Assembly (NCBI RefSeq): GCF_946480385.1
Contig: NZ_CAMLJP010000050.1
Location: 1 to 40,725, forward strand
Direction of reading: 5' to 3'
DNA length: 40,725 bases
Origin: an uncultured Azospirillum sp.
GTDB taxonomy: Bacteria; Pseudomonadota; Alphaproteobacteria; Azospirillales; Azospirillaceae
The notes under the pieces are model-generated. The model was not told the origin of the DNA. It did no database searches and saw only the letters and a list, made by a program, of their open reading frames with translations. Position numbers and translations under genes: made by a program. How positions within the stretch are numbered: the stretch's first letter is position 1; every line of letters begins with the position of its first letter. Positions 7,593 to 31,115 of this stretch are shown piece after piece.

Positions 7593-7637
7593 CTGACTGT
7601 TCGGTCAAGAACTGACGGTATGGACAGGCATGGTCCG
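7593..7637 (-). promoter_or_regulatory. Two-part upstream control element of preT (RutR-like site plus GGAC/GTCC element)
   Basis: Part 1 (7593-7608, CTGACTGTTCGGTCAA) matches 10 of the 14 defined positions of the E. coli RutR consensus TTGACCA-N2-TGGTCAA; the TTGACC half is exact on the minus strand. The identical 10-mer GAACTGACGG (7609-7618) follows, then part 2, GGACAG (7622-7627) and TGGTCCG (7631-7637). The same parts in the same order occur upstream of the ABC importer at 31074-31115. The element lies about 80-110 bases upstream of the predicted sigma-54 start, where an operator or enhancer would sit. Confidence 0.65.
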
Positions 7638-7758
7638 ATCATGCCAGCCATGCGGATTGCACGCAACTCAGCCTTTTGGCGCCTCTTTTGGCGGCGATAC
7701 GCAAGAAACGCATGGGAATGTGCGGATACGGAAACCGGAAATTTCGCCGTATCAAAGG

Positions 7759-7808
7759 GTTGCATCGGAAAGGCGCTGCCTTCAATTTCGGCAGCGCGCC
7801 TATGCAAC
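7759..7808 (+). promoter_or_regulatory. Structured leader (nested hairpin) upstream of ogt
   Basis: GTTGCAT (7759-7765) pairs with ATGCAAC (7802-7808). Inside it, GCGCTGCC (7773-7780) pairs with GGCAGCGC (7790-7797) around a 9-base loop. The structure ends 18 bases before the ogt ATG and leaves the ribosome site exposed. There is no T-run, so it is not an obvious terminator; a role in mRNA stability or translation is only a guess. Confidence 0.5.
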
Positions 7809-7826
7809 AGGGATCGGGGTGCCGCC

Positions 7827-8348
7827 ATGTCCGCTGCGTCCAGCCTGCTGATCGACCGCACCGCCACGCCCATCGGCGAGCTGATCGTGGTCGCCGACAC
7901 CGACGGCGCTCTGCGCGCGATCGACTGGACCGACCATGAGGACCGGCTGCACCGGCTGCTGCGCCTGCACCATCCCGGCGGTTACGAACTGCGGCCGTCC
8001 GCCGATCCGGGCGGGCTGACGCGGGCCATGGATGCCTATTTCGCGGGCGAGCTTGCGGTGATCGACCGGCTCCCGGTGCGCACCGGCGGGACGCCGTTCC
8101 AGCGCGCGGTGTGGGCGGCGCTGCGCGGCATTCGCTGCGGCGGCACCATTTCCTATCGCGAACTGGCGGCGCTGGCCGGGCGCCCGGCGGCGGTACGGGC
8201 GGCGGGGCATGCCAACGGCGCCAACCCGATCAGCATCGTGGTGCCCTGCCATCGGGTGATCGGCTCCGGCGGGGCGCTGACCGGCTATGGCGGCGGGATG
8301 GAGCGCAAGCGCTGGCTGCTGGCCCATGAAGGCGTGGCCGTACGGTAG
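7827..8348 (+). CDS. ogt: Methylated-DNA--[protein]-cysteine S-methyltransferase
   Basis: This 173-residue suicide DNA-repair enzyme removes O6-methyl groups from guanine onto its own cysteine. The active-site motif PCHRVIG places the acceptor at C141, and the C-terminal domain (about 88-170) has the expected helix-turn-helix and GTISYRELA segment. Residues 1-85 form the short N-terminal domain. The start at 7827 is preceded by GGGATCGGGG and gives a standard Ogt length; an upstream in-frame extension to 7458 would overlap preT antisense and is rejected. The lack of an AraC-type domain separates it from Ada. It is not functionally linked to the neighbouring operons. Confidence 0.93.
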   Translation: MSAASSLLIDRTATPIGELIVVADTDGALRAIDWTDHEDRLHRLLRLHHPGGYELRPSADPGGLTRAMDAYFAGELAVIDRLPVRTGGTPFQRAVWAALRGIRCGGTISYRELAALAGRPAAVRAAGHANGANPISIVVPCHRVIGSGGALTGYGGGMERKRWLLAHEGVAVR

Positions 8349-8467
8349 GCGCGCGCCTACCGCTTTTGCGCAGCGCACTTTGCGGCTCCGCTTCGGTTGT
8401 TGAAGGGAGAGGCGACGCAGCCGGTCAGCCGGCCGGCGCCGTCACCACGCCAACGAAAGGGAGCGCC

Positions 8468-8749
8468 ATGAGCGACAAGAACGACAAGAGCCGGACCGCA
8501 GGCGACAACGAGCGCATGAAGGGCGTGATCGACCAGGCCAAGGATCGGGCCGCCGGCGACCTGTCCGGCCACGAGCAGGACGGGCGCAAGGGCGGCGAGC
8601 AGACCAGGCGCGCCGTCGACGCCATGTCCACCGGCAACACGCCGCGGAGCGGCGACGACCCGCAGCACATCACCGGCGACACCATGCGCACGCCGATGCC
8701 GGACGAGACCGGCGGTGAAGGCGCCAAGCGGCGGGGCAAGGACAAGTAG
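8468..8749 (+). CDS. Small hydrophilic protein of unknown function
   Basis: This 93-residue protein is almost devoid of hydrophobic residues and very rich in Lys, Asp, Glu, Gly and Arg, so it is probably disordered. The segment MKGVIDQAKDRAAGDLSG (17-34) faintly resembles CsbD-type stress proteins, but the match is too weak to name it. A good AAAGGGAG ribosome site precedes the ATG, and a strong intrinsic terminator follows the stop, so it is probably a real single-gene transcript. No signal peptide, membrane segment or cysteine is present. Confidence 0.75.
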   Translation: MSDKNDKSRTAGDNERMKGVIDQAKDRAAGDLSGHEQDGRKGGEQTRRAVDAMSTGNTPRSGDDPQHITGDTMRTPMPDETGGEGAKRRGKDK

Positions 8750-8759
8750 GAACGCAGAA

Positions 8760-8787
8760 GGGGGGACGATCGCCGTCCCCCCTTTTT
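8760..8787 (+). terminator. Intrinsic terminator of the small hydrophilic protein gene
   Basis: A perfect 9-bp stem GGGGGGACG/CGTCCCCCC with a 5-base loop (8769-8773) is followed by TTTTT (8783-8787). It starts 10 bases after the stop codon. Confidence 0.92.
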
Positions 8788-8806
8788 CGGTGGAGAACGG
8801 CCGTCG

Positions 8807-9520
8807 TCAGGCGCCGAAGCCGCCGTCGATGGTCTGGAACGAGCCGGTGATCATCGCGGCATGCGGGCCGGCGACATAGGCGGTCAGTTCAGCGACCTCG
8901 TCGGCATGGATGTGGCGCTTGATGGCCATGAACTCGCGCATGGCGGGCGCCATTGGCCCGTCGGCTGGATTCATGTCGCTGTCGGTCGGACCGGGCTGGA
9001 TGGCGTTCACGGTGATGCCGCGGTGGCCGAAATCGCGGGCGAGGCCGCGCACCATGCTCTGGACCGCCGACTTGGTCATGCCATAGGCGGCGCCACCGGC
9101 GAAGGGCACGCGGTCGCCGTTGACCGACCCGATCACGATGATGCGCCCGCCATCGTTCATGCGCCGGGCCGCTTCGACCGACGCGTGGTAGGGCGCGCGC
9201 ACGTTGATGTCGATCATGCGGTCGACGGCGTCGGGATCGAAGGTCAGCGGATCGCCGATGATCGCGGTGCCGGCATTGACGACCAGCACGTCCAGCGCGC
9301 CGCGGTCGGCGACGGTGGCGATCAGGGCGTCGCGGTCGGCGCTGTCGGTCTGGATGGCCTCCGCGCCGGTTTCGGCGGCAAGCGCCTCGGCGGCATCCTT
9401 CGACCCGGCATAGGTGAAGGCGACGGTGCCGCCGGCCTTGGCGAAGCGGCGGACGATGGCCTTGCCGATGCCGCGGCTGCCGCCGAGGACCAGGATCTTG
9501 CGGCCGGTGAACTCACCCAT
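8807..9520 (-). CDS. bdcA: BdcA-like SDR (cyclic-di-GMP-binding biofilm dispersal mediator family)
   Basis: This 237-residue short-chain dehydrogenase/reductase has GGSRGIG (13-19), NAG (82-84), S132, Y146 and K150. The sequence follows E. coli BdcA closely over its full length, for example FTYAGSKDAAEALA, the PYHASVEAARRM block, GSVNGDR and QPGPTDSDMNPADGPM, and has the same length. BdcA in E. coli is reported to bind cyclic-di-GMP and promote biofilm dispersal. The gene is divergent from a BdcR-like TetR regulator, as in E. coli, which supports the assignment. AAGGAG precedes the ATG. Any catalytic substrate is unknown. Confidence 0.88.
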   Translation of the reverse strand: MGEFTGRKILVLGGSRGIGKAIVRRFAKAGGTVAFTYAGSKDAAEALAAETGAEAIQTDSADRDALIATVADRGALDVLVVNAGTAIIGDPLTFDPDAVDRMIDINVRAPYHASVEAARRMNDGGRIIVIGSVNGDRVPFAGGAAYGMTKSAVQSMVRGLARDFGHRGITVNAIQPGPTDSDMNPADGPMAPAMREFMAIKRHIHADEVAELTAYVAGPHAAMITGSFQTIDGGFGA

Positions 9521-9541
9521 GATGTGCTCCTTGAGAAAATG

Positions 9542-9553
9542 TAGTGACCGCTA
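9542..9553. promoter_or_regulatory. Putative BdcR operator 1
   Basis: TAGTGACCGCTA is an imperfect palindrome 22 bases upstream of the bdcA ATG. It matches operator 2 at 9592-9603 through the shared pattern TAGYGRYCRCTA. It abuts a TATATAAAT stretch that could be the -10 region of either divergent promoter. Confidence 0.65.
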
Positions 9554-9591
9554 TATAAATTCGGGCAGGGGGTTTGTGCAAGGAGAAAATA

Positions 9592-9603
9592 TAGTGGTCG
9601 CTA
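9592..9603. promoter_or_regulatory. Putative BdcR operator 2, overlapping the bdcR start codon
   Basis: TAGTGGTCGCTA is the second copy, 50 bases from the first and covering the GTG start of the TetR gene. A repressor on both copies would block both divergent promoters. Confidence 0.6.
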
Positions 9604-10211
9604 CAGAATCATCCCCAAAAGACTCATCCGGGCCGCGCGGGCGGCGGCGATCCTTCGATGTGGACGAGGCGGTCGAGACCGCGATGAGGCTTTTCCATGC
9701 GCGCGGCTACGACGCCGTCGGCGTCGCCGAACTGGGGTCGGAACTGGGGATCAAGCCGCCGAGCTTCTATGCGGCCTTCGGCAGCAAGGCCGGGCTGTTC
9801 GAGCGGGCGTTGCGGCGCTATGCGGCGGGGGAGGCGAACATCTTCGCCCGTGCGAAGGTGGACGGCGGCAGCGTGGCCGAGGTCGTCGAGCGCACGCTGC
9901 TGCTGGCGGCGCGGCTCTATCCGGAGCGGAACGGGGTGGCGGGCTGCCTCGTGCTCGACGGCGCGCGCAACAGCGCCGACCCGGAGGCCTGCGCGCTGGC
10001 CGAGGCGATGAGGAAAGCCGGTGTGGCGGCGCTCCGCGACTTCATCGCCGGGGAGGCGCCGGAGCGGGCCGACGCGTTGGCCGACTTCGTGACGATTGCG
10101 ATGCGGGGAATGTCGGCGGCGGCGCGCGACGGCGCCGACGAGGCGACGCTCACCACCTTCGCGGAGATGGCGAGCCGCGCCTTCCGCCGCGAACTGGCGG
10201 CGGAAGGGTGA
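9594..10211 (+). CDS. bdcR: BdcR-like TetR-family repressor
   Basis: This 205-residue TetR regulator has a helix-turn-helix at about 42-64 (VAELGSELGI, then PPSFYAAFGSKAGLF), closely resembling E. coli BdcR in both the DNA-binding region and the AGCLVLDGAR segment of the ligand domain. The start is taken as GTG at 9594 because AAGGAG lies 8 bases upstream; the longer open frame to 9414 runs through bdcA antisense. It is divergent from bdcA with two shared operator-like palindromes between and over the starts, so it probably represses itself and bdcA. It ends 8 bases from the convergent kdgK stop. Confidence 0.87.
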   Translation: MVATESSPKDSSGPRGRRRSFDVDEAVETAMRLFHARGYDAVGVAELGSELGIKPPSFYAAFGSKAGLFERALRRYAAGEANIFARAKVDGGSVAEVVERTLLLAARLYPERNGVAGCLVLDGARNSADPEACALAEAMRKAGVAALRDFIAGEAPERADALADFVTIAMRGMSAAARDGADEATLTTFAEMASRAFRRELAAEG

Positions 10212-10219
10212 CAACCTGT

Positions 10220-11140
10220 TCAGGCCGGCATTGCCTCGCGCGGGATGATGGCGCCGCGGTGCTGGATGACGGCGGCGGCCAGCCTGTGGGCGGCGCGGGC
10301 GGCGTCGGCCGGACCCTCGCCGCGCAGCCGGGCGGCGAGATAGCCGGCGCTGAAGCTGTCGCCGGCCGCCGTGGTGTCCACCACCGTGGCGACCTTCAGC
10401 GCGGGAACCTCGACGGCCTCGCCATTCTCGATCACCACGCAGCCGGGCTGTTCCAACTTCAGCACGATCTCGGAGACGCCGGCGTCCCGCACGCGTGCCA
10501 GCACGGCGTCGGCATCGGCGTCGCCATAGAGGTCGCGCAGGTCGGTGACGCCGGGCAGCGCGATGTCGGTCAGCCGCAGCATGCGGTCGAAGGCGACGCG
10601 GGCGGTCTCGATGTCCGGCCACAGGCGCGGGCGCCAGTTGGTGTCGAAGGCGACCTTGCCGCCGCGTGCCCGGACCCGCTGCAGCACCTCGAACAGCCGC
10701 TCGCGGCCCTGCTCGCCCAGGATGGCGATGCTGATGCCGGAGAGATAGACGATGCCGTAGCCCTCCAGCGCCTTGGACAGCTCCGGCGTCTGGGGCAGGG
10801 CGAACAGTTCGCGCGCCGGCGCGCGGTCGCGCCAGTAGAGGAAGCGGCGCTCGCCGCTGGCGTCCGTCTCGATCAGGTAGAGGCCGGGCAGGCGGTTCGG
10901 CACGCGCAGCACATGGCCGGTGCCCACCCCTTCGGCGGCCCAGGCGGCGATCATGTCCTCGCTGATGGTGTCGTCGCCGAGAGCGGTGACATAGTCGACC
11001 GGCGTGCCCAGACGCGCCAGATAGACCGCGGTGTTCAGCGTGTCACCACCGAAGCCCATGGTCAGCGACCCGTCCGGCCGCCGGAACATCTCGATCATGC
11101 ATTCGCCGAGCGCGGCGACGCGGTTGGGCGTGTCGGTCAT
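10220..11140 (-). CDS. kdgK: 2-dehydro-3-deoxygluconate (KDG) kinase
   Basis: This 306-residue PfkB/ribokinase-family kinase phosphorylates KDG to KDPG, the common end of both uronate branches in this window. Visible motifs are the GGDTLNTA substrate region (31-38) and DTTAAGDSFSAGY (255-267) with the catalytic base D261. The start at 11140 has GGAG 7 bases upstream; a 5-residue extension is possible. It is the last gene of the uxaC-uxaA-transporter-kdgK operon, 46 bases after the transporter. The Entner-Doudoroff aldolase that would cleave KDPG is not in the window. Confidence 0.92.
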   Translation of the reverse strand: MTDTPNRVAALGECMIEMFRRPDGSLTMGFGGDTLNTAVYLARLGTPVDYVTALGDDTISEDMIAAWAAEGVGTGHVLRVPNRLPGLYLIETDASGERRFLYWRDRAPARELFALPQTPELSKALEGYGIVYLSGISIAILGEQGRERLFEVLQRVRARGGKVAFDTNWRPRLWPDIETARVAFDRMLRLTDIALPGVTDLRDLYGDADADAVLARVRDAGVSEIVLKLEQPGCVVIENGEAVEVPALKVATVVDTTAAGDSFSAGYLAARLRGEGPADAARAAHRLAAAVIQHRGAIIPREAMPA

Positions 11141-11186
11141 GCTTGTTCTCCGCAAGCCGGGAATGCCCCGGCAAATCCTTATTATT

Positions 11187-12170
11187 TCATGCCACCGCAG
11201 CGCGGCGTTCCCGTGCCCGCATCCGTTCGCGGTGCGCGGTGTAGAGGCCGCTGGCGATGATCACGCCGGTGCCGACGAAGGTCCAATGGTCGGGCACCGC
11301 GCCGAAGACGAGGAACCCCAGCGCCGTGGACCAGATCAGCTGCACATAGGTGAAGGGCGCCAGCACCGATGCCTCGCCCTGGCGGTAGGCCAGGATCAGC
11401 AGCCATTGCGATGCCGTGTAGACCAGCCCGATGAAGACCCCCAGCAGCATCTCCCACGGCGTCGGCCAAGCGGCGTGCAGGGGAAGCAGCGCGGACAGAG
11501 CGATCAGGCCGGTCAGCGCGCTCCACACCATGGTGGTCAGCGGGTTCTCCTGCACCGTCATCTTGCGCGTCGCCACAAGGCCGAGCGCCCAGCTGAAGGC
11601 GGTCAGAATCGGCAGCAGCGAAGCCGGCTGGAAGCCCTCCGCGCCCGGCCGGATGACGATGATGACGCCAGCCAGCCCGACCAGCAGCGCCGCCCAGCGG
11701 CGGATGCCGACCTTCTCGCTCAGCAGCAGGATCGACAGCACGGTGACGAAGACGGGGGAGACGAAGCTGATCGCCGCGGCCTCGGCCAGCGGCAGATGCT
11801 GCATCGCCATGATGAAGAACAGCGCCGAGCCCAGCATGCCCAGGCCGCGCAGGACCTGAAGCCCCGGCCGCGTCGTCTTCAGCACGTGCAGCGAGCCGCC
11901 GCGCAGCGCCAGCGGCATCACCAGCGCGGTGAAGACGACATAGCGCATCCAGGCGATCTCGGCCGGCGGCAGGGTCCGGCCGAGATATTTCGCCGTGGCG
12001 TCGGAGCAGGACAGGCAGGCCACCGCCAGCACCACCAGCAGGATCGCCCGCATCGGCTCCGTGCCCTTGGACACCGATCCAGTGGGCTGGATCGGGGTCT
12101 GCGGCGCGTTGACCGGCTGGGGGCCGGGATCGCGGTGGGGGCCAGAGAGAGGGGTGGAACTGTCAGGCAT
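11187..12170 (-). CDS. EamA/DMT-family membrane transporter
   Basis: This 327-residue integral membrane protein has about ten predicted helices arranged as two EamA repeats. A proline-rich hydrophilic N-terminal tail of about 39 residues precedes the first helix (RAILLVVLAVACL), so translation may instead begin at Met40 (12053). It is embedded between uxaA and kdgK, so it may move hexuronates, KDG or a related intermediate. DMT proteins transport many unrelated metabolites and direction cannot be read from sequence. No TRAP or MFS uronate transporter is present in this window. Confidence 0.85.
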   Translation of the reverse strand: MPDSSTPLSGPHRDPGPQPVNAPQTPIQPTGSVSKGTEPMRAILLVVLAVACLSCSDATAKYLGRTLPPAEIAWMRYVVFTALVMPLALRGGSLHVLKTTRPGLQVLRGLGMLGSALFFIMAMQHLPLAEAAAISFVSPVFVTVLSILLLSEKVGIRRWAALLVGLAGVIIVIRPGAEGFQPASLLPILTAFSWALGLVATRKMTVQENPLTTMVWSALTGLIALSALLPLHAAWPTPWEMLLGVFIGLVYTASQWLLILAYRQGEASVLAPFTYVQLIWSTALGFLVFGAVPDHWTFVGTGVIIASGLYTAHRERMRARERRAAVA

Positions 12171-20140: not shown

Positions 20141-21421
20141 ATGACCGCTGCGCCGACCACCCCCTCGCCAGCGGAAAGACTGTTCCGCAAGGCGGCGCTC
20201 GACCGCCTGTCGTCGCCGGAGGAGCTGGACCGGCTGGTCACGCTGACCACGCCGCGGGGCTGGCTGGCTTTGACCGCGCTGCTGGGGCTGCTGGGGCTGG
20301 CGCTGGTGTGGGCGGTGGTGGGGACCATCCCGACGCGGGTGACCGGCTCCGGCCTGCTGGTCAGCAGCGGCGGCCGGGTGTTCGACGCGGTCGCCAGCGC
20401 GTCCGGCGCGCTGGTCGCGCCGCTGGTGAAGCCAGGCGACACGGTCACCGCCGGCCAGTTGCTGGCCCGCGTCGACAAGGCGGAGCTTGAACAGACGCTC
20501 GACCACGCGCGGGCGGTGGTGAGGGAGCGGGAGCAGGATCTGGCGCGCCGCACCACCCAGCTGGAGCGTGAGGCGCAGGCCCGTCGCGCCAATTTCGCCG
20601 CCCGCCGCGCCGCCCTGCGGCAGGTCGTGGCCGCCGCCGAGACGCGCGTGCAGTTCCTCGACACCCTGCTGCGCGGGCAGGAGGACATCGCCAGCCGCGG
20701 CTTCACCACCCGCCAGCGGGTGGAGGACACGCGCCAGGAGCTGGCCGCCGCCCGCCAGAAGGTCAGCGACGCCAAGAGCCAGCTTCTGCAGATCGACACC
20801 GAGGAGCTGGACATGGCCAGCCGGGCCGAGCAGACGCTGACCGAGGGGCGCGACCGCGTCGCCGATGCCCGCCGGCGGGTGGACGAGCTTGCCCTGCAGC
20901 TGGAGCAGGACACGCAGATCCTCAGCCCGACCGACGGGCGCGTCACCGAATGGAAGGTGGCGGAGGGCGCCCGCGTCGCCGCCGGCACCCCGGTGGTCAG
21001 CATCGAAAGCGGATCGCGCGGCCTGCAGCTGGTGCTCTATGTCCCGCCGGAGCATGGCAAGAAGCTGAAGCCCGGCATGGATGTCCGCATCGCGCCGTCG
21101 ACGGTGCGCAAGGAGGAATACGGCACGCTGGTCGGCCGGGTCGCCGAGGTTTCGGACTTCCCCTCCACCCCGCAGGGCATGCAGGCGGTGTTGCAGAACG
21201 ACCGGCTGGTGACGCAGTTCTCCGCCAAGGGACCGCCCTTCGCCGTGCGCGTCGATCTGGTGCCGGAGGCCGGCACGCCGTCCGGCTACCGCTGGTCGTC
21301 CGGTGCCGGTCCGGCGATGACCATCACCAGCGGCACCCTGGCCGAAGGCGAGGTGACGGTGCGCGAACAGCCGCCGATGGCCTTCGTCATCCCGGCCCTG
21401 CGCAAGGCGACCGGCCTGTGA
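20141..21421 (+). CDS. HlyD/NHLM-type membrane fusion protein
   Basis: This 426-residue periplasmic adaptor belongs to an ABC peptide exporter. A cytoplasmic N-terminus of about 40 residues is followed by one membrane helix (about 41-61), a lipoyl-like half-motif near 85-112 (SGALVAPLVKPGDTV), a long charged coiled-coil hairpin (about 115-275) and the second lipoyl/barrel portion (ILSPTDGRVTEW onward). The start at 20141 is the first Met before the helix; its ribosome site is poor. The stop overlaps the next gene by GTGA, indicating tight coupling to the C39 exporter. It belongs to the family found with NHLM-type export systems. No TolC-like outer membrane gene is adjacent. Confidence 0.85.
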   Translation: MTAAPTTPSPAERLFRKAALDRLSSPEELDRLVTLTTPRGWLALTALLGLLGLALVWAVVGTIPTRVTGSGLLVSSGGRVFDAVASASGALVAPLVKPGDTVTAGQLLARVDKAELEQTLDHARAVVREREQDLARRTTQLEREAQARRANFAARRAALRQVVAAAETRVQFLDTLLRGQEDIASRGFTTRQRVEDTRQELAAARQKVSDAKSQLLQIDTEELDMASRAEQTLTEGRDRVADARRRVDELALQLEQDTQILSPTDGRVTEWKVAEGARVAAGTPVVSIESGSRGLQLVLYVPPEHGKKLKPGMDVRIAPSTVRKEEYGTLVGRVAEVSDFPSTPQGMQAVLQNDRLVTQFSAKGPPFAVRVDLVPEAGTPSGYRWSSGAGPAMTITSGTLAEGEVTVREQPPMAFVIPALRKATGL

Positions 21422-23595
21422 GCGCAAAGCCGCCGGTTCGCAAACCGACCCGCGTGCGCACGCCCACCCTGCTGCAGATGGAGGCGGTGGAGTGCGGCGC
21501 CGCCTCGCTCGGCATCGTCCTGGCTTATTTCGGCCGCTGGGTGCCGCTGGAGGAGCTGCGCGTCGCCTGTGGCGTGTCGCGTGACGGCAGCAAGGCCAGC
21601 AACCTGCTGCGCGCGGCGCGGCGCTACGGCCTGACCGCCAAGGGCTTCAAGAAGGAGCCCGACGCGCTGGCCGACATGCCCTGGCCGCTGATCGTCCATT
21701 GGAACTTCAACCATTATCTGGTCTTCGAAGGCTTCAAGGGCGATCACGCCTATCTGAACGATCCGGTCACCGGCCCGCGCCGCGTCACCCGCGCGGAGTT
21801 CTCCGAGGCCTTCACCGGCGTGGCCCTGGCCTTCGAGACGGGGCCGGAGTTCGTCGCCGGCTCGAAGCCGCCGAGCCTTGCCGGCATGCTCGGGCGGCAG
21901 TTGACGCGGTCGCGTGCCGCGGTGGGCTTTGCACTGGCGGCCAGTCTGGCGCTGGTGCTGCCGGGCATCGCCCTGCCGGCCTTCACCAAGGCCTTCGTCG
22001 ACGAGGTTCTGATCGGCGGGCAGCGCAGCTGGCTGGTCCCGCTTCTGCTGGGCATGGGCGCCACGGCGCTGCTGCGGGCGGCGCTGACGGCATTGCAGCA
22101 GTCGGCCCTGCTGAAGCTGGAGACCAAATTCGCCATGGTGATGGCCAGCCGCTATGTCTGGCGGCTGCTGCAACTGCCGGTGCCCTTCTTCGGGCAGCGC
22201 CATCCCGGCGACATCGCCGGCCGCGTCGCCGCGAATGACCGGGTGGCGCGGCTCTTGTCGGGAGAGATGGCGACGGCGGCGATGAGCCTGCTGACGGTGG
22301 TCTTCTTCGGGCTGGTCATGCTGACCTACGACGTGGCGTTGGCGGCGGTGACCATCCTGCTGGTGCTTGGCAACGTGCTGTTCCTGCGCGGCGCCTCGCG
22401 CGGGCGGGAGGATGCCGGGCGGCGCCTGCTGTCGGAACAGGCCAAGCTGGGCGCCGTCACCATCGGCAGCATCCAGGCGATCGAGACGCTGAAGTCGGCC
22501 GGGCTGGAGGGGCAGGCGTTCGAGCGCTGGGCCGGCTATCAGGCGCGGCTGTTGTCGGTGCGCCAGACTCTGGGGGTGCATTCGGCGATGCTGGCGGTGG
22601 CGCCGGCCTTCCTCAACGCGCTGGGCACGGCGGCGATCCTGGGGCTGGGCGCGGTGCGGGTGATGGACGGCGCGCTGACCGTCGGCGCGCTGGTGGCGTT
22701 CCAGAGCCTGGCCGCCAGCTTCTCCGAGCCGGTCGCCAGGCTGGTCGGCATGGGTGGGACGCTGCAGCGGGTGAAGGCCGACCTGCAGCGGCTGAACGAC
22801 ACGCTGGACCATGCGCCCGACCCGCAGTCCGGCCTTGCCGCCGAGGGGGCGGAGGTTGCAGACGGGCCGGCGCGGCTGAGCGGGGCGGTGGAACTGGTGG
22901 ATGTGTCCTTCGGCTTCAGCGTGCTCGACCCGCCGCTGATCGAGGGACTGTCGCTGGCGCTGGCGCCGGGGATGCGGGTGGCGCTGGTCGGCGGATCGGG
23001 CAGCGGGAAATCCACCGTCGGCCGGCTGATCTGCGGCCTTGTCCAGCCCTGGTCGGGGCAAATCCTGTTCGACGGACGGGCGCCGGCGGAGATCCCGGTG
23101 GGGCTGCGCGCCGCCTCCATCGCCTATGTCGACCAGGACGTCTTCCTGTTCGACGGGTCGGTGCGTGACAACCTGACCCTGTGGGACCGCACGGTGCCGG
23201 AAGCGGCGCTGACCCGCGCGCTGGAGGATGCTGCCATCCTGGGCGAGGTCGCCGGGCGCCAGGGCCAGCTCGACGCGCCGGTCGCCGAGGGGGGCGTGAA
23301 TTTCAGCGGCGGCCAGCGCCAGCGGCTGGAGATCGCCCGCGCGCTGACCGGCAACCCGTCGATCCTGGTGCTGGACGAGGCGACGGCGGCGCTGGACGTC
23401 GCGACCGAAAAACTGATCGACGACAATTTGCGGCGGCGCGGCTGCACCTGCATCATCATCGCCCACCGGCTGAGCACGATCCGCGATTGCGACGAGATCA
23501 TCGTGCTGAACCAGGGCCGGGTGGTGGAGCGCGGCAGCCACGAGGATCTTCTGGCGCGCGGCGGCGAGTATGCCTCGCTGATCGCGGCGGGGTGA
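21418..23595 (+). CDS. NHLM/PCAT-type peptidase-containing ABC exporter
   Basis: This 725-residue exporter processes and exports a leader peptide-bearing substrate. The N-terminal C39 peptidase domain (about 15-140) is intact: Q20 and C26 (QMEAVECGAAS), H99 (NHYLVFEG) and D115 (LNDP). A six-helix membrane domain (about 155-440) and an ATPase domain follow, with Walker A GGSGSGKST (525-533), FSGGQRQR signature, Walker B ILVLDEAT and the switch His in AHRLST. The start is a GTG inside the upstream stop (GTGA overlap). C39 domains cut after a double-glycine motif in the substrate leader, so a Gly-Gly precursor is expected somewhere in the genome. Confidence 0.9.
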   Translation: MSAKPPVRKPTRVRTPTLLQMEAVECGAASLGIVLAYFGRWVPLEELRVACGVSRDGSKASNLLRAARRYGLTAKGFKKEPDALADMPWPLIVHWNFNHYLVFEGFKGDHAYLNDPVTGPRRVTRAEFSEAFTGVALAFETGPEFVAGSKPPSLAGMLGRQLTRSRAAVGFALAASLALVLPGIALPAFTKAFVDEVLIGGQRSWLVPLLLGMGATALLRAALTALQQSALLKLETKFAMVMASRYVWRLLQLPVPFFGQRHPGDIAGRVAANDRVARLLSGEMATAAMSLLTVVFFGLVMLTYDVALAAVTILLVLGNVLFLRGASRGREDAGRRLLSEQAKLGAVTIGSIQAIETLKSAGLEGQAFERWAGYQARLLSVRQTLGVHSAMLAVAPAFLNALGTAAILGLGAVRVMDGALTVGALVAFQSLAASFSEPVARLVGMGGTLQRVKADLQRLNDTLDHAPDPQSGLAAEGAEVADGPARLSGAVELVDVSFGFSVLDPPLIEGLSLALAPGMRVALVGGSGSGKSTVGRLICGLVQPWSGQILFDGRAPAEIPVGLRAASIAYVDQDVFLFDGSVRDNLTLWDRTVPEAALTRALEDAAILGEVAGRQGQLDAPVAEGGVNFSGGQRQRLEIARALTGNPSILVLDEATAALDVATEKLIDDNLRRRGCTCIIIAHRLSTIRDCDEIIVLNQGRVVERGSHEDLLARGGEYASLIAAG

Positions 23596-23599
23596 GGCG

Positions 23600-26497
23600 A
23601 TGGACGTTCTGGAAAGCCCCGCGACCCTGCAGGCCGCCATTCTGGTGGAGGGCGGCAACCACCGGCCGCTGACGCTGGACGACCCGCGGCTGGGCTGGCG
23701 GGTGGAGGACGGCTATGTCGACCTGTTCCACCTTGCGAGTAACAGCGGGCGGCGGCGCCACCTGTTCCGGGCGGAAACCGGGGCGCTGCTGTTCGGGGTC
23801 GGCAAGCAGGAGGACGCGACGCTGGTGGCGGTCGGCTCCATCGGCTCGCGCCTCAGCGGGGTGGAACGGGAGGCACTGGCCGGGGCGGAGGATTTCCTGC
23901 CCCATGCCGAGGCCTGGATCCTGCGCCTGACCGATGCCGCGACCGGTGGCGAGGCGGTCTGGCCCGACCGGGTGGCGGAACCGGGCGAGCGCTCGCTCGG
24001 TCCCGGCGAAAGGCTGTATGCCGATCCACGCCGGCCGCTGTGGCTGACGGTGACGGAGGGGGAGGCCGCTTGGCTGGGCAGTCCGGCGACGGCGGCCGGC
24101 GAGCCGCCGCTGCCGATGGCCGACCGCGCCTGGATTGAAAGCGCTGGTGGGGCAGCTGTTTCGGTCACCGAGGCCTGGCCCGATGCCGCCGCGCTGTGGC
24201 CGGCCTTCGACCGCTTCCATGCGCTGGTGCTGGACCGCATCGGCGGGCGCATCGCCGCCCAAGCCGAGAGCGAGGCGAGGCGCGCCCTGCGCAGCCGGGA
24301 TTCGGCACGGGAGTCGCTGGCCCAGGCGCTGGGCGGCCTGTCCGACCTCGTCGACGGGCGGGCGAACACGGCCGTTCCAGTCCTTGGCGACCCGCTGTCG
24401 GGTGCGCTGTCCGCGCTGATGGCTCAGATGGGGCTGGAGGAGCCGCTTCCCCGCATCGATGCCGCCGGCAAGCCGGCCAATGAAATGCTGGACCTGATGC
24501 TGGCCGCCGCGCGCCTGCGCGGTCGCAAGGTGATCCTGCGCGACGGCTGGTGGCGGAGCGAAGGGGCGCCGATGCTCGGCTGGCTGGAGGAGGGCAGGGT
24601 GCCGGTGGCGCTGCTGCCCACCCCGGCCGGCTTCGACATGCTGCATGCCGGCGGCCGGCGTCGTGTGACGCAGGATCTCGCCGACGGCATGGCGGCGGAG
24701 GCGCTGCATCTCTACCGCCCGCTGCCGGCCCGCGCGCTGGGTGCGGCGGAGGCGATCCGCTTTCCCCTGCGCGGTCTTGGTGGCGACGGGATGCGGCTGG
24801 GGCTGAGCGGGCTGGCGGCGGCGGTGCTCGGGCTGCTGGTGCCGGTCGCCACCGGCTTCCTGTTCGACAGCGCCATCCCGCGCGCCGACACCGGGCAGCT
24901 GGTCTTCATCATCGCCGGACTGGTCGCCGCCGCCATCGGCGGAGCGGCCTTCGACATTGTCAAGGTGATGGCGGTGCTGCGGCTGGAAAGCCGGATCGAC
25001 GGGGTGATGCAGGCGGCCTTCATCGACCGGCTGTTCGCCCTGCCGGTCGGCTTCTTCCGCCGCTACACCGCCGGCGACCTCGCCGACCGGGCGCTGGGGT
25101 TGCAGACCGTGCGCGAGATTCTGGCGGCCAGCACGGTGACCGGTCTGCTGGGCGCGCTGTTCGGGTCGATCAGCCTGGGGCTGCTGGCGGTTTATGACTG
25201 GCGCCTCGCCCTGATCGCGACCGCGCTGGCGCTGCTTTCGGCGCTGGTGACCGGGGCGCTGTCCTATGGCCAGCTGCGGCACGAGCGGGAGCATATCCGC
25301 CGTCAGGGCCGGCTGGACGGGCTGGTGCTGCAACTGATCGTCGGCATCGGCAAGCTGCGCGTCGCCGGGGCGGAGCCGCGGGCGATGGCGGAATGGGCGC
25401 GCGGATTCTCGGCGCAGAAGTCCCGCGCGGTGGCCGCCCAGCGCTACGGCAATGCGCTGGAGACCTTCCACGCCGCCTTCCCGACCCTGGCGACCATCGC
25501 GGTGTTCCTGGCGGTGGCGCTGCTGATGGAATCGGACGCCAAGCAGCAGGCGCTCCAGGCGCTCGCCGCCACGCCGGGGCAAGAGGCGCCGGCCGCCTTC
25601 TCCACCGGCAGCTTCCTCGCCTTCATCACCGCCTTCGGCCAACTGCTGGCGGCGCTGACCGAGATGGCGCACGCCCTGACCAAGAGCCTGACCGTCCTGC
25701 CGCTGCTGGAGCGTGCCCGCCCGATCCTGGAGACCGCGCCCGAGGTTCTGGCCGGCCGCGACGCGCCGGGCGAATTGCAGGGCGGCATCACCTTGAGCCG
25801 TGTCAGCTTCCGCTACGCCCCCGATGCGCCGCCGGTGCTGCACGACCTCAGCCTGTCGATCGAACCGGGGGAGTTCGTCGCCATCGTCGGTGCGTCGGGC
25901 AGCGGCAAATCCACGGTGATGCGCCTGTTGCTGGGCTTCGAACGGCCGGACCAGGGGGAGGTGTTCTTCGACGGACGCGCCGCCGAACGGCTCGACCTTG
26001 CCGCCGTGCGCCGGCAGATCGGCGTGGTGCTGCAGAACGGGCGGATCACCTCGGGCAGCCTGTTCCAGAACATCGTCGGCACCGCCCCGCTCGGGCTGGA
26101 CGATGCGTGGCACGCGGCCCGGTTGGTCGGGCTGGACCGCGACATCGAACAGATGCCGATGGGCATGCACACGGTGCTGATGGATGGCGGCGGCACCCTG
26201 TCGGGCGGGCAGCGCCAGCGGCTGATGATCGCCCGCGCCCTGGTCCATCGCCCGCGCGTCCTGCTGCTGGACGAGGCGACCAGCGCGCTCGACAACCGCA
26301 CCCAGGCGGTGGTGACGGCGTCGCTCGCCAAGCTCAGCGTCACCCGCGTGGTGATCGCCCACCGCCTCAGCACCATCCGCGACGTCGACCGCATCCTGGT
26401 GCTGGAGGCCGGGCGGCTGGTGCAGGCGGGGCGGTACGAGGATCTGATGGCGGTGGACGGACCGTTCCGGACGCTGGCCAGCCGGCAGTTGCTTTAG
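23600..26497 (+). CDS. Second NHLM-type ABC exporter with large N-terminal domain
   Basis: This 965-residue protein has no peptidase domain. Residues 1 to about 390 form a soluble region whose start (RAETGALLFGVGKQ) resembles a cupin/cyclic-nucleotide-type fold, as in the NHLM ABC partner family. A six-helix exporter domain (about 395-700) follows, then an ATPase with Walker A GASGSGKST (764-772), LSGGQRQR, Walker B VLLLDEATSALD and AHRLST. It begins 4 bases after the C39 exporter stop and probably forms a heteromeric or sequential export complex with it. Its precise role in these systems is not established. Confidence 0.86.
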   Translation: MDVLESPATLQAAILVEGGNHRPLTLDDPRLGWRVEDGYVDLFHLASNSGRRRHLFRAETGALLFGVGKQEDATLVAVGSIGSRLSGVEREALAGAEDFLPHAEAWILRLTDAATGGEAVWPDRVAEPGERSLGPGERLYADPRRPLWLTVTEGEAAWLGSPATAAGEPPLPMADRAWIESAGGAAVSVTEAWPDAAALWPAFDRFHALVLDRIGGRIAAQAESEARRALRSRDSARESLAQALGGLSDLVDGRANTAVPVLGDPLSGALSALMAQMGLEEPLPRIDAAGKPANEMLDLMLAAARLRGRKVILRDGWWRSEGAPMLGWLEEGRVPVALLPTPAGFDMLHAGGRRRVTQDLADGMAAEALHLYRPLPARALGAAEAIRFPLRGLGGDGMRLGLSGLAAAVLGLLVPVATGFLFDSAIPRADTGQLVFIIAGLVAAAIGGAAFDIVKVMAVLRLESRIDGVMQAAFIDRLFALPVGFFRRYTAGDLADRALGLQTVREILAASTVTGLLGALFGSISLGLLAVYDWRLALIATALALLSALVTGALSYGQLRHEREHIRRQGRLDGLVLQLIVGIGKLRVAGAEPRAMAEWARGFSAQKSRAVAAQRYGNALETFHAAFPTLATIAVFLAVALLMESDAKQQALQALAATPGQEAPAAFSTGSFLAFITAFGQLLAALTEMAHALTKSLTVLPLLERARPILETAPEVLAGRDAPGELQGGITLSRVSFRYAPDAPPVLHDLSLSIEPGEFVAIVGASGSGKSTVMRLLLGFERPDQGEVFFDGRAAERLDLAAVRRQIGVVLQNGRITSGSLFQNIVGTAPLGLDDAWHAARLVGLDRDIEQMPMGMHTVLMDGGGTLSGGQRQRLMIARALVHRPRVLLLDEATSALDNRTQAVVTASLAKLSVTRVVIAHRLSTIRDVDRILVLEAGRLVQAGRYEDLMAVDGPFRTLASRQLL

Positions 26498-26505
26498 GGG
26501 GAACG

Positions 26506-27068: not shown

Positions 27069-27078
27069 ATCCTGCTGC

Positions 27079-28095
27079 TTACAGCTTGGCCGCCGCGTCG
27101 AACACCGCGTGGCTGTAGGCGCCTTCCGGCTTCTTCGAGATGACCGGGGTGGAGGCGCCCGACATCAGGATGTCGACCGTGCGGTCGAAGTCGGCCGGGT
27201 CGAGATAGCCGGTGCCCTTGGCGCCGCCGTCGATCAGCTTGGCGACCTCCTGCATCATGGTGGTCTGGTGTTCCTCGGTCTGGGCGCCGGTGGTGTCGTT
27301 CTCCAGCACGATCTTCACCGCCTCGGCCTGGTTCTTGGCAGCGTATTCCCAGCCCTTGGCCGAGGCCTTCACGAACTTCGCCAGCTTCTCGACCGTCTTC
27401 GGATCGGACAGCGCCTTTTCCGTGGCGTAGAGGCCGTCCTCCAGGGTGGCGACGCCCTGGTCCTGATACTTGAAGACGGTCAGCTCGTCGGCCTTCATGC
27501 CGGCTTCGATCAACTGCCAATATTCGTTGTAGGTCATGGTGGAGATGCAGGAGGCCTGCTTCTGCAGCAGCGGATCGACGTTGAAGCCCTGCTTCAGCAC
27601 CTTGACGTCCGGGCTGGAGCCGGAGGTAGAGTAGCCCAGCTTGCTCATCCAGGACAGGAAGGGATATTCGTTGCCGGAGAACCAGACGCCCAGCGTGTGA
27701 CCCTTGAAGTCCTTCGGGTCCTTGATGTTGGCGTCCTTGCGGCAGGTCAGCATCATGCCGGACTTCTGGAACATCTGGGCGATGTTGACCAGCGGCACGC
27801 CCTTTTCCCGGCTGGCGAGCGCCGACGGCATCCAGTCGACGATCACGTCGGCGCCGCCGGCGGCGATAACCTGGGTCGGGTTGATGTCGGGGCCGCCGGC
27901 CTTGATGGTGACGTCCAGCCCGGCGTCCTTGTAGAAGCCCTTGGCCGCCGCGACGTAATAGCCGGCGAACTGGGCCTGGGTGACCCATTTCAGCTGGAGC
28001 GTCAGCGGATCGGCGGCGGCGGCCGGCGCACCCCAGCCGGCGAGGCCGGTGAGCGCAGTGGCGGCGAGCAGGACGGCGGAGGCAAGGGTCTTCAT
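27079..28095 (-). CDS. NMT1/ThiY-like ABC transporter substrate-binding protein (putative pyrimidine importer)
   Basis: This 338-residue periplasmic binding protein belongs to the NMT1/THI5 class. A signal peptide spans about 1-28 (hydrophobic core SAVLLAATALTGLAG, cleavage near APAAAA/DP). The mature part starts LTLQLKWVTQAQFAGYYVAAAKGFY, a signature shared with pyrimidine- and thiamine-precursor-binding proteins. The start at 28095 has GAGGA 8 bases upstream; a longer frame to 28203 is rejected because it would precede the signal peptide. It is the last gene of a four-gene operon. The shared promoter module with preT suggests uracil/thymine or related bases as substrate; thiamine precursors are the alternative. 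Confidence 0.85.
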   Translation of the reverse strand: MKTLASAVLLAATALTGLAGWGAPAAAADPLTLQLKWVTQAQFAGYYVAAAKGFYKDAGLDVTIKAGGPDINPTQVIAAGGADVIVDWMPSALASREKGVPLVNIAQMFQKSGMMLTCRKDANIKDPKDFKGHTLGVWFSGNEYPFLSWMSKLGYSTSGSSPDVKVLKQGFNVDPLLQKQASCISTMTYNEYWQLIEAGMKADELTVFKYQDQGVATLEDGLYATEKALSDPKTVEKLAKFVKASAKGWEYAAKNQAEAVKIVLENDTTGAQTEEHQTTMMQEVAKLIDGGAKGTGYLDPADFDRTVDILMSGASTPVISKKPEGAYSHAVFDAAAKL

Positions 28096-28141
28096 CGCGT
28101 TCGATCCTCTTCTGGCTGGAGCTTGTTTTGGCGTGAGGCGG

Positions 28142-29257
28142 TCAGCGTTTGCGGAAAGACGGGTGCCAGGCGGTGACATGCCGCTCCGCCAGTGCAAGCG
28201 CACCGTAGAGCAGCGATCCGGTCAGGGCGGCGACGGCGATGGTCGCCCACACGATGTCCAGATTCATCCGGGCAACCTGGGTGGAGATGCGGAAGCCCAT
28301 CCCCACCACCGGCGTCCCGAAGAACTCGGCGACGATGGCCCCGATCAGGGCCAAGGTCGAGTTGATCTTCAGTCCGTTGAACAAAAAGGGCAAGGCGCAG
28401 GGAAGCCGAAGCATCGCCAGCGTGCGCCAGTAGCCGGCACCGTAGGAGCGCATCAGGTCGAGCTGGATGCGCTCGGCGGATTGGAGACCGGCCAAGGTGT
28501 TGATCAGCATGGGGAAGAAGGTCATCACCACGATGACGGCGGCCTTCGATTGCCAGTCGAAGCCGAACCACATCACCATGATCGGCGCGATTCCCACCAC
28601 CGGCACGGCGCTGGCGAGGTTGCCGAGCGGCAGCAGCCCGCGCGCCAGGAAGGGCACCCGGTCGGCCAGGATCGCCACGAGGAAGCCGGCGCCGCAGCCG
28701 ATCAGATAGCCGCGCAGGACGGAGATCAGCACGGTCTGGCGGAAATCATCCCACAGGTCGGCGGTGTTGGCGGCGAAGGCGGTCAGCACGAGACTCGGCG
28801 GCGGCAGCAGGATCGTCGGCACCTGGAAGCCGCGGGTCAGGATCTCCCACAGCATGACCAGCGCCAGCCCGAACAGGGCGGGACCGGCCAACCGCGCCGG
28901 ACCGCTCACCCCCGCCAGCAAGGCCAGCACCCGCCACAGCAGCAGCGTCGCGCCGGCCACATAGAGCCAAAGCCCACCGGCGTGGGCGAGCGCGTAGCCC
29001 TGGTTCAGCAGCACCAGCGGTGCGGCATAGGCGGCGGCGATACCGGCGAGCAGGAGCAGGGCCTCGCCCAGGGCGGAAGCGGGCAGGCGCCTCGCCAGAA
29101 TGGTCGCGACGGTCAGCGCGAAGAGGGCAAGGGCCACCGGGATCTGCGGCAGATACAGGGCGGTGCCGTCGAGCGTGGCGAAGGGCAGCAGCGGGGCGGC
29201 CAGCATCACCAGCGGCCAAGGGGACATGGTGGGGCGCGCCTTGGTGGGACGGCTCAT
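28142..29257 (-). CDS. ABC transporter permease 1 with N-terminal membrane extension
   Basis: This 371-residue protein has about four extra hydrophobic segments in residues 14-115 before the usual SsuC/TauC-type permease domain (about 125-371). The EAA loop for ATPase contact lies around LDLMRSYGAGYWRTLAMLRLP. The ATG at 29257 overlaps the stop of the preceding permease (ATGA), fixing the start. Typical permeases of this class are near 260 residues, so the N-terminal extension is unusual. It would pair with permease 2 as a heterodimer. Confidence 0.88.
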   Translation of the reverse strand: MSRPTKARPTMSPWPLVMLAAPLLPFATLDGTALYLPQIPVALALFALTVATILARRLPASALGEALLLLAGIAAAYAAPLVLLNQGYALAHAGGLWLYVAGATLLLWRVLALLAGVSGPARLAGPALFGLALVMLWEILTRGFQVPTILLPPPSLVLTAFAANTADLWDDFRQTVLISVLRGYLIGCGAGFLVAILADRVPFLARGLLPLGNLASAVPVVGIAPIMVMWFGFDWQSKAAVIVVMTFFPMLINTLAGLQSAERIQLDLMRSYGAGYWRTLAMLRLPCALPFLFNGLKINSTLALIGAIVAEFFGTPVVGMGFRISTQVARMNLDIVWATIAVAALTGSLLYGALALAERHVTAWHPSFRKR

Positions 29258-30126
29258 CGCGCACCTCCCCGGCCGCCCGGCACCAGCGCCCGTTCGGCGA
29301 GGCCGACGGCGGCGACCAGGGTGACGCTGAGCAATGCCGCCATCACCAGCGCGCTCCAGATCTGCACGGTCTGGCCGTAATAGGAGCCGGACAGCAAGCG
29401 TGCGCCCAATCCCGCCTGACCGCCGGTCGGCAGCTCCGCGACGATGGCACCGACGACGCTGGCGGCGACCGCGATCTTCAGGCTGGTGAACAGATAGGGC
29501 AGGGAGGCCGGCAGGCGCAGCAACCGGAAGGTCTGGGCGGTGCCGGCGCTGTAGGTGCGCATCAGGTCCAGCGTCAGCGGATCGGCGGAGCGCAGCCCCT
29601 TCACCATGCCGATGGTGATCGGGAAGAAGCACAGGTACATGGCGATGATCGCCTTGGGCAGCAGGCCGGTGAAGCCCAGATTGCCGAGGATCACCACGAT
29701 CATCGGCGCAATCGCCAGGATCGGCACGGTCTGCGAGGCGATGACCCAGGGCAGCAGGCTCGATTCCAGCGTGCGCGCCTGGACGATCCCCGCCGCCAGC
29801 GCCACCCCAAGAACCACGCCCATGCCGAAGCCGGCCAGCGCCGCCCCGGCGGTGACGCCGGTGTGGTAGAGCAGATTGCGGATGCTGGTCACCGGATAGC
29901 CGGTCAGGGAGTTGTAGAGGTCCAGCGCCACCTGATCCGGCGTCGGCAGGATCGGGCGCTTCATCGCCAGCGTGGCGCGGATCAGGTCGGCGGTGGTCCA
30001 GTCATGGCCCGCGCGGTTCAGCGCATCGGTTGCCGTCGGCGCGTTCAGCCAGACCGCGCCCGCGTACCACAACACCAGCACCGCCAGCGCCATCACGACG
30101 ACGGGGAGCGTGCTTTTAGTCGTCAT
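29254..30126 (-). CDS. ABC transporter permease 2
   Basis: This 290-residue inner-membrane permease of the SsuC/TauC class has one N-terminal helix, a periplasmic stretch of about 60 residues and five or so further helices. The EAA loop is LDLMRTYSAGTAQTFRLLRLP, clearly related to that of permease 1. It starts inside the end of the ATPase gene (11-base overlap) and ends in an ATGA overlap with permease 1. Two non-identical permeases in one importer are characteristic of annotated pyrimidine ABC transporters (known context, not verified here). Confidence 0.88.
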   Translation of the reverse strand: MTTKSTLPVVVMALAVLVLWYAGAVWLNAPTATDALNRAGHDWTTADLIRATLAMKRPILPTPDQVALDLYNSLTGYPVTSIRNLLYHTGVTAGAALAGFGMGVVLGVALAAGIVQARTLESSLLPWVIASQTVPILAIAPMIVVILGNLGFTGLLPKAIIAMYLCFFPITIGMVKGLRSADPLTLDLMRTYSAGTAQTFRLLRLPASLPYLFTSLKIAVAASVVGAIVAELPTGGQAGLGARLLSGSYYGQTVQIWSALVMAALLSVTLVAAVGLAERALVPGGRGGAR

Positions 30127-30958
30127 AGCTGTGGCCCTCCATCAACCCTTCGCGGACGCGGTGGGCGATGCGCTGGAACTCCGGGCTTTCGCGGATGTCG
30201 AGTGTGCGCTCGCGCGGCAGGTCGCGGTCGCAGTCGATGACGTCGAGGATGCGGCCGGGGCGCGGGCTCATCACCACGATGCGGGTGGAGAGGAACACCG
30301 CCTCGGCGATGGAGTGGGTGACGAAGATGCAGGTCTTGCGGGTGCTCAGCCACAGGCGGGTGAGCTGCAAATTCAGGTGGTCGCGGGTGATCTCGTCGAG
30401 CGCGCCGAACGGCTCGTCCATCAACAGCAGGTCCGGATTGAAGGCGAGCGCGCGGGCGATGGACACCCGCTGCTGCATGCCGCCGGACAGCTGCCAGGGG
30501 AATTTGCGCTCGAAGCCCGACAGGCCGACGAGGTCCAACTGCTCGCGGGCGAGGGCCTGACGTTCGGCCTTGGGCAGCCCCATGATCTCCAGCGGCAGCA
30601 TGACGTTGCGCTCCACCGTCCGCCACGGATAGAGCGCCGGGGCCTGGAAGACATAGCCATAGGCGCGCTTCAGCCGTGCCTGTTCCGGCGTCATGCCGTT
30701 GACCGTCACCTCGCCGGAGGTCGGCTGTTCGAGGTCGGCGACGACGCGCATCAGCGTGGTCTTGCCGCAGCCGCTGGGGCCGATCAGCGAGATGAAATCG
30801 CCCTTGGCAATCGACAGGCTGACGTCGCTCAGCGCGTAGACCGGATGATCGGCGGCCTGATAGGTCAGGGTCAGGTTGCGGATGTCGACGATGGTGCGCG
30901 GCGCATGATCTGCACCCGGCGGAACCAGAGTGAGCGGTGCGGGCTGGGCGGCTGGCAC
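30116..30958 (-). CDS. ABC transporter ATP-binding protein (first gene of importer operon)
   Basis: This 280-residue SsuB/TauB-type ATPase has Walker A GPSGCGKTT (60-68), signature LSGGMQQR (157-164), Walker B LLLMDEPFGALDE (D181, E182) and the switch His in VTHSIAEAV. The start is set at GTG 30958: GAAGGGA lies 8 bases upstream, and this leaves room for a sigma-54-like promoter at 31001-31017. The open frame continues to 31204, but that would run through the promoter and the operator-like element at 31074-31115. It overlaps permease 2 by 11 bases. Confidence 0.88.
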   Translation of the reverse strand: MPAAQPAPLTLVPPGADHAPRTIVDIRNLTLTYQAADHPVYALSDVSLSIAKGDFISLIGPSGCGKTTLMRVVADLEQPTSGEVTVNGMTPEQARLKRAYGYVFQAPALYPWRTVERNVMLPLEIMGLPKAERQALAREQLDLVGLSGFERKFPWQLSGGMQQRVSIARALAFNPDLLLMDEPFGALDEITRDHLNLQLTRLWLSTRKTCIFVTHSIAEAVFLSTRIVVMSPRPGRILDVIDCDRDLPRERTLDIRESPEFQRIAHRVREGLMEGHSYDD

Positions 30959-31000
30959 GGCGGTCGTCCCTTCGCGTTGTCGTCTGTTGCGGAGGACGGG

Positions 31001-31017
31001 AGCAAGAAGCGAGCCAG
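31001..31017 (-). promoter_or_regulatory. Sigma-54-like promoter of the ABC importer operon
   Basis: The minus strand reads CTGGCTCGCTTCTTGCT, one mismatch from YTGGCACG-N4-TTGCW with correct GG-GC spacing. The predicted transcript start is near 30990, giving a leader of about 32 bases to the GTG start. Geometry parallels the preT promoter. Confidence 0.72.
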
Positions 31018-31073
31018 ATCGTGCAGCGGTGGGGAAGTTGGCTGGTAGTAGATTGATTTTACGAAGAGAAAAC

Positions 31074-31115
31074 TTGTCCATTGGGACAGGAACTGACGGG
31101 ACGGACAGTGGTCCG
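31074..31115 (-). promoter_or_regulatory. Two-part upstream control element of the ABC importer, copy of the preT element
   Basis: Part 1 TTGTCCATTGGGACAG (31074-31089) matches 10 of 14 RutR consensus positions. GAACTGACGG (31090-31099) is identical to the preT copy and at the same distance from part 1. Part 2 is GGACAG (31103-31108) followed by TGGTCCG (31109-31115), giving the perfect inverted repeat CGGAC-N4-GTCCG. Part 2 half-sites are 3 bases closer than at preT. Confidence 0.65.

Follow-up and report, generated by a model that had tools for sequence, protein, structure and literature searches.

The window analysed here, a 40,725-nt stretch of DNA from an uncultured Azospirillum sp., carries on its minus strand a catabolic operon headed by preT and a separate, distant operon for an ATP-binding cassette (ABC) importer, and in front of each lies one copy of a shared upstream element, which is the subject of this study. 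The catabolic operon runs preT-preA-amidase-rutR-dihydropyrimidinase. Its first gene (6149..7483), which would encode the NAD(P)-binding oxidoreductase subunit of dihydropyrimidine dehydrogenase, is named preT for its position before preA, its family matches staying below their cut-offs (NF009410, 334 bits against 516). It is followed by preA for the other dihydropyrimidine dehydrogenase subunit (4848..6239; NF006183, 690 bits against 335, matching from residue 37), a hydantoinase/carbamoylase-family amidase that is probably a beta-ureidopropionase (3537..4808; TIGR01879, 426 bits against 204), a TetR-family regulator gene (2784..3503), and dihydropyrimidinase (1327..2769; TIGR02033, 588 bits against 393). 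The regulator matches the RutR family with 199.5 bits and RutR chains of the PDB with a best E of 1.5e-45, but falls under both NCBIfam equivalog cut-offs (TIGR03613, 199.5 against 368 bits; NF011584, 180.5 against 230 bits) and is to be named RutR-like, not a RutR equivalog. The importer operon encodes an ATP-binding protein (30116..30961, with an inferred GTG start at 30961), two permeases recognised by family matches (29254..30126 and 28142..28945) and an NMT1/THI5-like substrate-binding protein (27079..28203; PF09084, 156.7 bits), which gave no NCBIfam match at E up to 1e-40. Relatives of the window mark it as Azospirillum DNA: its PreT is 93-95% identical to that of A. oryzae and near relatives, and the nearest of the genomes compared, G001, has 43% of the window's sampled words in common with it.

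The likeness between the sequences upstream of preT and of the importer, pointed out in a first-pass annotation of this DNA, proved real and lies at the positions given there. Over 35 bases, 26 positions agree, which is the best such match between the two intergenic regions, and none out of 2000 dinucleotide-preserving shuffles reached it (range 18-25). The 10-mer GAACTGACGG occurs at 7609-7618 and 31090-31099 of the plus strand, and GGACAG starts 13 bases beyond it in both copies, as had been reported. Read on the operon strand, both copies consist of two 16-bp palindromes at a start-to-start offset of 19 bp, namely CTGTCCATACCGTCAG-TTC-TTGACCGAACAGTCAG at preT and CTGTCCGTCCCGTCAG-TTC-CTGTCCCAATGGACAA at the importer. 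The 10-mer, which had been taken for a separate motif between palindromes, is thus actually the right arm of box 1 together with the 3-bp spacer and one inner base; on the operon strand this arm has the sequence CGTCAG, and the reported GGACAG corresponds to the left arm. A third shared block that had been proposed, TGGTCCG, could not be upheld, as its distance differs between the copies and it is lost in most orthologues in alignments judged by eye.

RutR recognises a 16-bp palindrome close to TTGACCAnnTGGTCAA, and we score boxes as matches out of 14 positions of this consensus. At preT, box 1 (7612..7627, minus strand) scores 9 and box 2 (7593..7608) scores 10; at the importer, box 1 (31093..31108, minus strand) scores 8 and box 2 (31074..31089) again 10. 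Beside box 2, both copies carry a T-tract, TTTT (7588..7591 and 31069..31072, alignment columns 40-43), of which T40 and T41 are invariant in the element alignment, and T42 and T43 are kept at 90% or more. Box 1 is an imperfect palindrome in which two of the six pairs never match, while box 2 remains symmetrical by exchanging A and T (T-A in 14 and A-T in 9 of 24 distinct rows). Immediately before the preT copy lies another conserved block, TTGCGT-17-CATGAT (7638-7666, minus strand), which may be a sigma70 promoter or may act as a signal for the divergent methyltransferase gene. On the importer side, a direct repeat of AATTTTCGGGC with starts 30 bp apart (31142-31182) is found between the element and marC; among importer loci it is kept only in closer relatives and perhaps belongs to the marC promoter region.

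Both copies of the element lie upstream of a sigma54-type promoter, for which the consensus is a GG-N10-GC core in a TTGGCAC-N5-TTGCW context. The -24/-12 promoter of preT, TTGGCACGCGGGTTGCT (7533..7549, minus strand), agrees with all 12 of the consensus positions and begins 78 bp downstream of the box 1 start, and that of the importer, CTGGCTCGCTTCTTGCT (31001..31017, minus strand), agrees with 10 of 12 and starts 91 bp after it. Scanning of the window gave 18 sites scoring at least 9/12, with the preT site ranking first and the importer site sharing second place with two others at 10. GG-N10-GC is present at every tabulated Azospirillum element site, and a sigma54-type site of 9-12/12 lies 59-92 bp from the box 1 start at all 46 tabulated element sites, several of which are copies of one genome. 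As such, the two-part element of the first-pass annotation stands insofar as it is shared and conserved; its parts, however, are tandem boxes, and the sigma54-type promoters had been overlooked. Element-promoter spacings at preT are 67, 78 and 89 bp, in exact 11-bp steps, with 59 bp in Telmatospirillum (L026), and 90-92 bp at importers. The 11-bp steps suggest that the element is helically phased relative to the promoter: spacings of 59, 67, 78, 89 and 91 bp fall near a single helical phase (R 0.77 at 10.5 bp, P ~0.05), a P value that rests on five spacing classes which we selected as distinct.

All eight Azospirillum preT loci examined carry both boxes and the sigma54-type promoter, and seven carry a rutR homologue; in the eighth (L013) no genes beyond the amidase are visible. 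A profile of the element (46 positions, 25 sites) searched in 45 genomes of the genus of G001 gave 43 strong matches (E <1e-6) in 22 genomes, two in each of 21 and one in G027; seven further matches were weak (E 7e-4 to 0.095), and two of these came from genomes lacking PreT. A match to PreT itself at E up to 1e-100 was obtained in 23 of the 45 genomes, namely the 22 element-bearing ones and G028, the PreT of which is 63% identical; the 22 genomes without PreT had no strong element match. One site lies just upstream of preT in all 22 element-bearing genomes, and the second lies upstream of importer genes in all 21 genomes with two sites. In 18 of these 21 the gene adjoining the second site is that of the ATPase (13 genomes, plus G012, G064, G065, G066 and G068; the G012 element copy is interrupted by N positions), and in the other three (G017, G003 and G067) it is the binding-protein gene, with element and promoter remaining and no ATPase or permease orthologue in the 7.5-kb stretch at that site. 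Because many of the searched genomes had supplied profile sites, matches there were to be expected, and a second test was therefore made with a profile of preT sites only (11 sites). This recovered the importer site in 15 of the 21 genomes at E up to 0.1 and missed it in G025, G035, G032, G030, G004 and G003; its extra matches were one of 27 bases in G004 and three weak ones (E 0.08-0.095) in genomes without PreT. When relatives were checked for absence of the element at one of the two loci, G027 was the sole one-site genome, and its best importer ATPase is at the level of a paralogue (82%). Strong matches at both loci in 21 of 45 genomes, and the presence of the element at both operons of Insolitispirillum, bear out the earlier proposal that the element is a regulatory signal.

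At the three second sites with a lone binding-protein gene (L153, L156 and L159, in G017, G003 and G067), the importer operon appears to have shrunk to its substrate-binding protein, which a paralogous ATPase-permease set elsewhere may serve. Paralogous ATPase and permeases are found on large contigs of G001 and G003 (84, 73 and 83%, and 80, 71 and 82% identity), with no binding-protein gene in the 10 kb read, and our guess would be that in G003 the lone binding protein could work with such a set. In G004, a single perfect box, CTGACCGTCCGGTCAGGTTTTCC, stands between the two operons (L164, near 6751-6777), preceded by direct repeats that look CRISPR-like by eye and followed by a transposase-like reading frame.

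That the importer belongs with the PreTA pathway, as had been suggested from the shared element, gained support from other genera. In 22 of 72 non-Azospirillum loci, several of which are cut by contig ends, the preTA strand also carries a related ATPase gene (63-87% identical), and in 13 of those 22 all four importer genes, including both permeases and the binding protein, stand beside preTA. These findings support the view that the importer would feed the PreTA-dihydropyrimidinase pathway, with a substrate predicted from this linkage. Among 24 importer-ATPase loci examined (L091-L114), the twin element is present at all 13 whose identity reaches 88% or more (L091-L103), with sigma54-type sites of 9-11/12 and one departure in box 1 of L102. 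In the other 11, with 66-83% identity and representing paralogues or other genera, the motif scan found no twin element, and L106 and L109 had one single box-like match each. In L109, which belongs to G028, this box-like CTGACGGATAGGACAG lies 20 bp before a 10/12 sigma54-type TTGGCTCCGATCTTGCG, near an 80%-identical importer ATPase; a canonical RutR box stands before preT in this genome. The importer operon of Insolitispirillum lies directly ahead of the preT operon and bears a twin element of its own, CTGACCAAAGGGACAG-AAA-CTGTCCTGTCGGACAG, at a 19-bp offset, with CTGGCTTACTTCTTGCT 90 bp further on; the letters and the offset were read by eye here, the scan having listed only the first box, while the second scores 8/14.

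What, then, holds this position in other genera? Of 80 PreT loci, 79 had upstream sequence, and 71 of these lie outside Azospirillum. A RutR-type box (at least 11/14) was found within 300 bp upstream of preT in 39 of the 71, against 0.95 expected from shuffles, which agrees with the RutR likeness claimed in the first-pass annotation. Twin boxes at offsets of 18-22 bp occur in nine (L019, L026, L030, L042, L046, L050, L052, L059 and L070, with L042, L046, L050 and L070 looking closely related), against 0.65 pairs in shuffles over all offsets of 16-40 bp. The scan gave no sigma54 site above 9/12 at these nine loci. Insolitispirillum (L019) and Telmatospirillum (L026) show twin boxes at the same 19-bp offset before preT, the right arm of box 1 being poorly kept in L019, and here a promoter-like TTGGCACGCCTTTTGAT or GTGGCACGCCCTTTGAT was found, in which GC at -12 has become GA. 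The form seen in these two genera reads TGGCACGCC-N2-TTGAT. The recognition helix of the regulator agrees with the box type in 37 of 39 loci having a RutR homologue, Azospirillum included: an outer TTTA/TAAA arm occurs in none of 24 loci of the PK(A/P)N(L/I/V)HYY type and in 13 of 15 of the SK(P/A)NxLYY type (Fisher p 1e-8, which is nominal, as related sequences are counted separately). Since the twin element holds the place that the RutR operator has in relatives, it is most likely a RutR operator in degenerate tandem form.

Several known systems resemble this arrangement. NtrC, DctD and other sigma54 activators bind tandem enhancer sites upstream of -24/-12 promoters, and the paired palindromes upstream of -24/-12 promoters found here are alike in this respect; the Azospirillum motif, however, is unlike that of NtrC, and RutR-type boxes hold its place at preT in relatives. 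At the IR1 operator of QacR, two TetR-family dimers sit on adjacent sites of one operator, reportedly binding cooperatively, whereas the pairing of dimers at the Azospirillum element is a prediction from sequence. E. coli RutR is described as binding a palindrome of ~16 bp, from which uracil keeps it, and rutA-G, an operon that also encodes a uracil transporter, as being expressed under nitrogen limitation in an NtrC-dependent manner (PMC10891134), while at carAB RutR is described as an activator acting from a far-upstream site (PMC6245113). The likeness to RutR/rutABCDEFG lies in a RutR-type operator over nitrogen-scavenging pyrimidine genes with a transporter. The pathway differs, being rut there and preTA/dihydropyrimidinase here; in Azospirillum the boxes are in tandem at a fixed 19-bp offset with no recognisable NtrC site, and the importer is encoded in a separate, distant operon instead of inside the rut operon. 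RutR regulons have been predicted in 68 proteobacterial genomes of 13 groups, with taxon-specific motif substitutions (PMC5343134), and the Azospirillum case fits that pattern. The main text of that study has no occurrence of Azospirillum, and its available passages no tandem boxes or sigma54 promoters, although its supplements or RegPrecise could list sites. The paper listings and few passages searched, which left most subscription journals outside their coverage, showed no description of the element. RutR-type control as such is known; we found no description of the variant in which a tandem operator lies over sigma54 promoters, and this variant extends a known kind of control rather than being a new system.

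We consider it probable that the element is a tandem RutR-type operator that tunes two sigma54-type promoters by uracil. This builds on what is seen at the sequence level: the tandem boxes, the sigma54-type promoters, their conservation and co-occurrence with preT, the RutR-type boxes of relatives and the linkage of importer and preTA genes. From these we infer that, without uracil, each 16-bp box would hold one dimer of the preT operon's own RutR homologue, and that uracil or a related ligand would release it. Such control would cover two promoters, that of preT-preA-amidase-rutR-dihydropyrimidinase and that of the NMT1-type ABC importer of a presumed pathway substrate. The activation required by sigma54 would be supplied by a nitrogen- or otherwise regulated AAA+ enhancer-binding protein, to which RutR would add substrate control by blocking or modulating that activation, its presumed effect being repression rather than activation. 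As the same site pair and the same promoter type occur at both, the separated operons are probably switched on together.

We must take into account several observations that speak against this interpretation. A TetR-type protein alone cannot activate sigma54 polymerase, and no other upstream block conserved at both loci was seen, leaving the activator without an obvious binding site. The Azospirillum preT boxes score only 9-11/14, and the window's importer boxes 8 and 10, with arms reading TGTCC/GGACA and not TGACC/GGTCA. The helix of the Azospirillum regulator, PKANLHYYF, is identical to that of relatives with canonical boxes and thus gives no reason for the changed operator; in E. coli, RutR has SKTNLLYYF, which breaks the helix-box rule, given a TTGACC-type box in that species. 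Palindromic covariation over both boxes shows no excess (three double-change pairs against a column-shuffle mean of 3.4), and its counts clearly beat slid controls only. Outside Azospirillum, 32 of the 71 preT loci lack a box of at least 11. Finally, G028 has a different preTA cluster with a divergent rutR, a single canonical box, TTGACCGTTCGGTCAA, 94 bp before the alignment-estimated preT start and no sigma54 site upstream of preT in the scan, which shows that the twin form is not needed beside preT.

So could the twin palindrome instead be the enhancer, or upstream activating sequence, itself, on which an AAA+ sigma54 activator sits as two dimers and reaches the polymerase over a short loop, with the RutR likeness ancestral or coincidental? 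By eye, no other upstream block besides the promoter is kept at both loci as well as between genera; the distance from the start of box 1 to the -24/-12 site, 59-92 bp, is in the usual range for such enhancers; and the phasing of the spacings fits, as does an IHF-like site between element and promoter at the importer, found with a loosened consensus. Conversely, RutR-type boxes hold the position in relatives and rutR lies within the operon. No sigma54-activator domain was found among the scanned open reading frames (ORFs) of the window, a scan that covered part of them. Comparison of the sigma54 activators of four Azospirillum genomes gave ten common to all four, and the only ones in the three preT-positive genomes without a counterpart in preT-negative G020 were L188 and L190, both response regulators and possible activator candidates. 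A GAF-type activator, L182, profiled over the 45 genomes, was rejected because G004, which bears the element, has no L182 at E up to 1e-100. As for NtrC, the binding of which had been envisaged in the first-pass annotation, its sites are not in evidence: the best scores against the consensus are 9/12 at preT and 8/12 at the importer, on par with 261 pieces of the window, in which best scores of 7, 8, 9 and 10 occur in 50, 152, 53 and 6 pieces. The enhancer explanation stays alive through the phasing and the lack of any other block seen conserved at both loci, but we regard it as unlikely. A combined form, in which overlapping half-sites are contested between RutR and an enhancer-binding activator and uracil, by releasing RutR, frees the enhancer, would account for the RutR ancestry, the phasing and the lack of another visible enhancer at once; its second protein is postulated, however, and with the shared T-tract as the sole extra feature, this form strikes us as quite improbable.

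It could also be argued that RutR binds the twin boxes as a roadblock at the start of the upstream sigma70-type TTGCGT-17-CATGAT, this being the relevant preT promoter and the sigma54 promoter secondary. By eye, the block and its 17-bp spacing are found in the window and eight Azospirillum preT regions, directly before box 1 in L016 and L017. Its -35 and -10 look weak, however, no counterpart was seen at the importer or in L019 and L026, and the block could equally serve the divergent methyltransferase gene, which makes this explanation very improbable in our view. As for chance similarity, or recent duplication of non-functional DNA, the degeneracy of single boxes (8-10/14 in the window) would allow for it, but the outcome of the shuffles and the conservation across 22 genomes and Insolitispirillum reduce its probability to next to nothing. 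Returning to the tandem RutR operator, a more specific form of it would have the operator rebuilt as a tandem, helically phased sigma54 upstream element, at which the uracil-sensing TetR protein competes with or gates the enhancer-promoter contact at two unlinked operons. Here the whole-turn insertions at preT (67, 78 and 89 bp) look as if a bound protein must face the polymerase. We put this form forward tentatively and hold it to be rather doubtful.

Elsewhere in the window, 20950-26497 holds a pair of neighbouring large genes for ABC transporters, of which the first includes a peptidase C39 domain, and an RTX-repeat protein is encoded at 23-1153.

If the tandem operator acts as proposed, a catabolic operon would be joined with an NMT1-type importer of generic annotation into one two-operon regulon of Azospirillum, and the importer would receive a testable substrate class. 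The type of promoter differs over a shared operator position, being sigma54-type in Azospirillum and also, though with a changed -12 at preT, in Insolitispirillum and Telmatospirillum. This opens the question of how a TetR-family sensor may act at an enhancer-dependent promoter.

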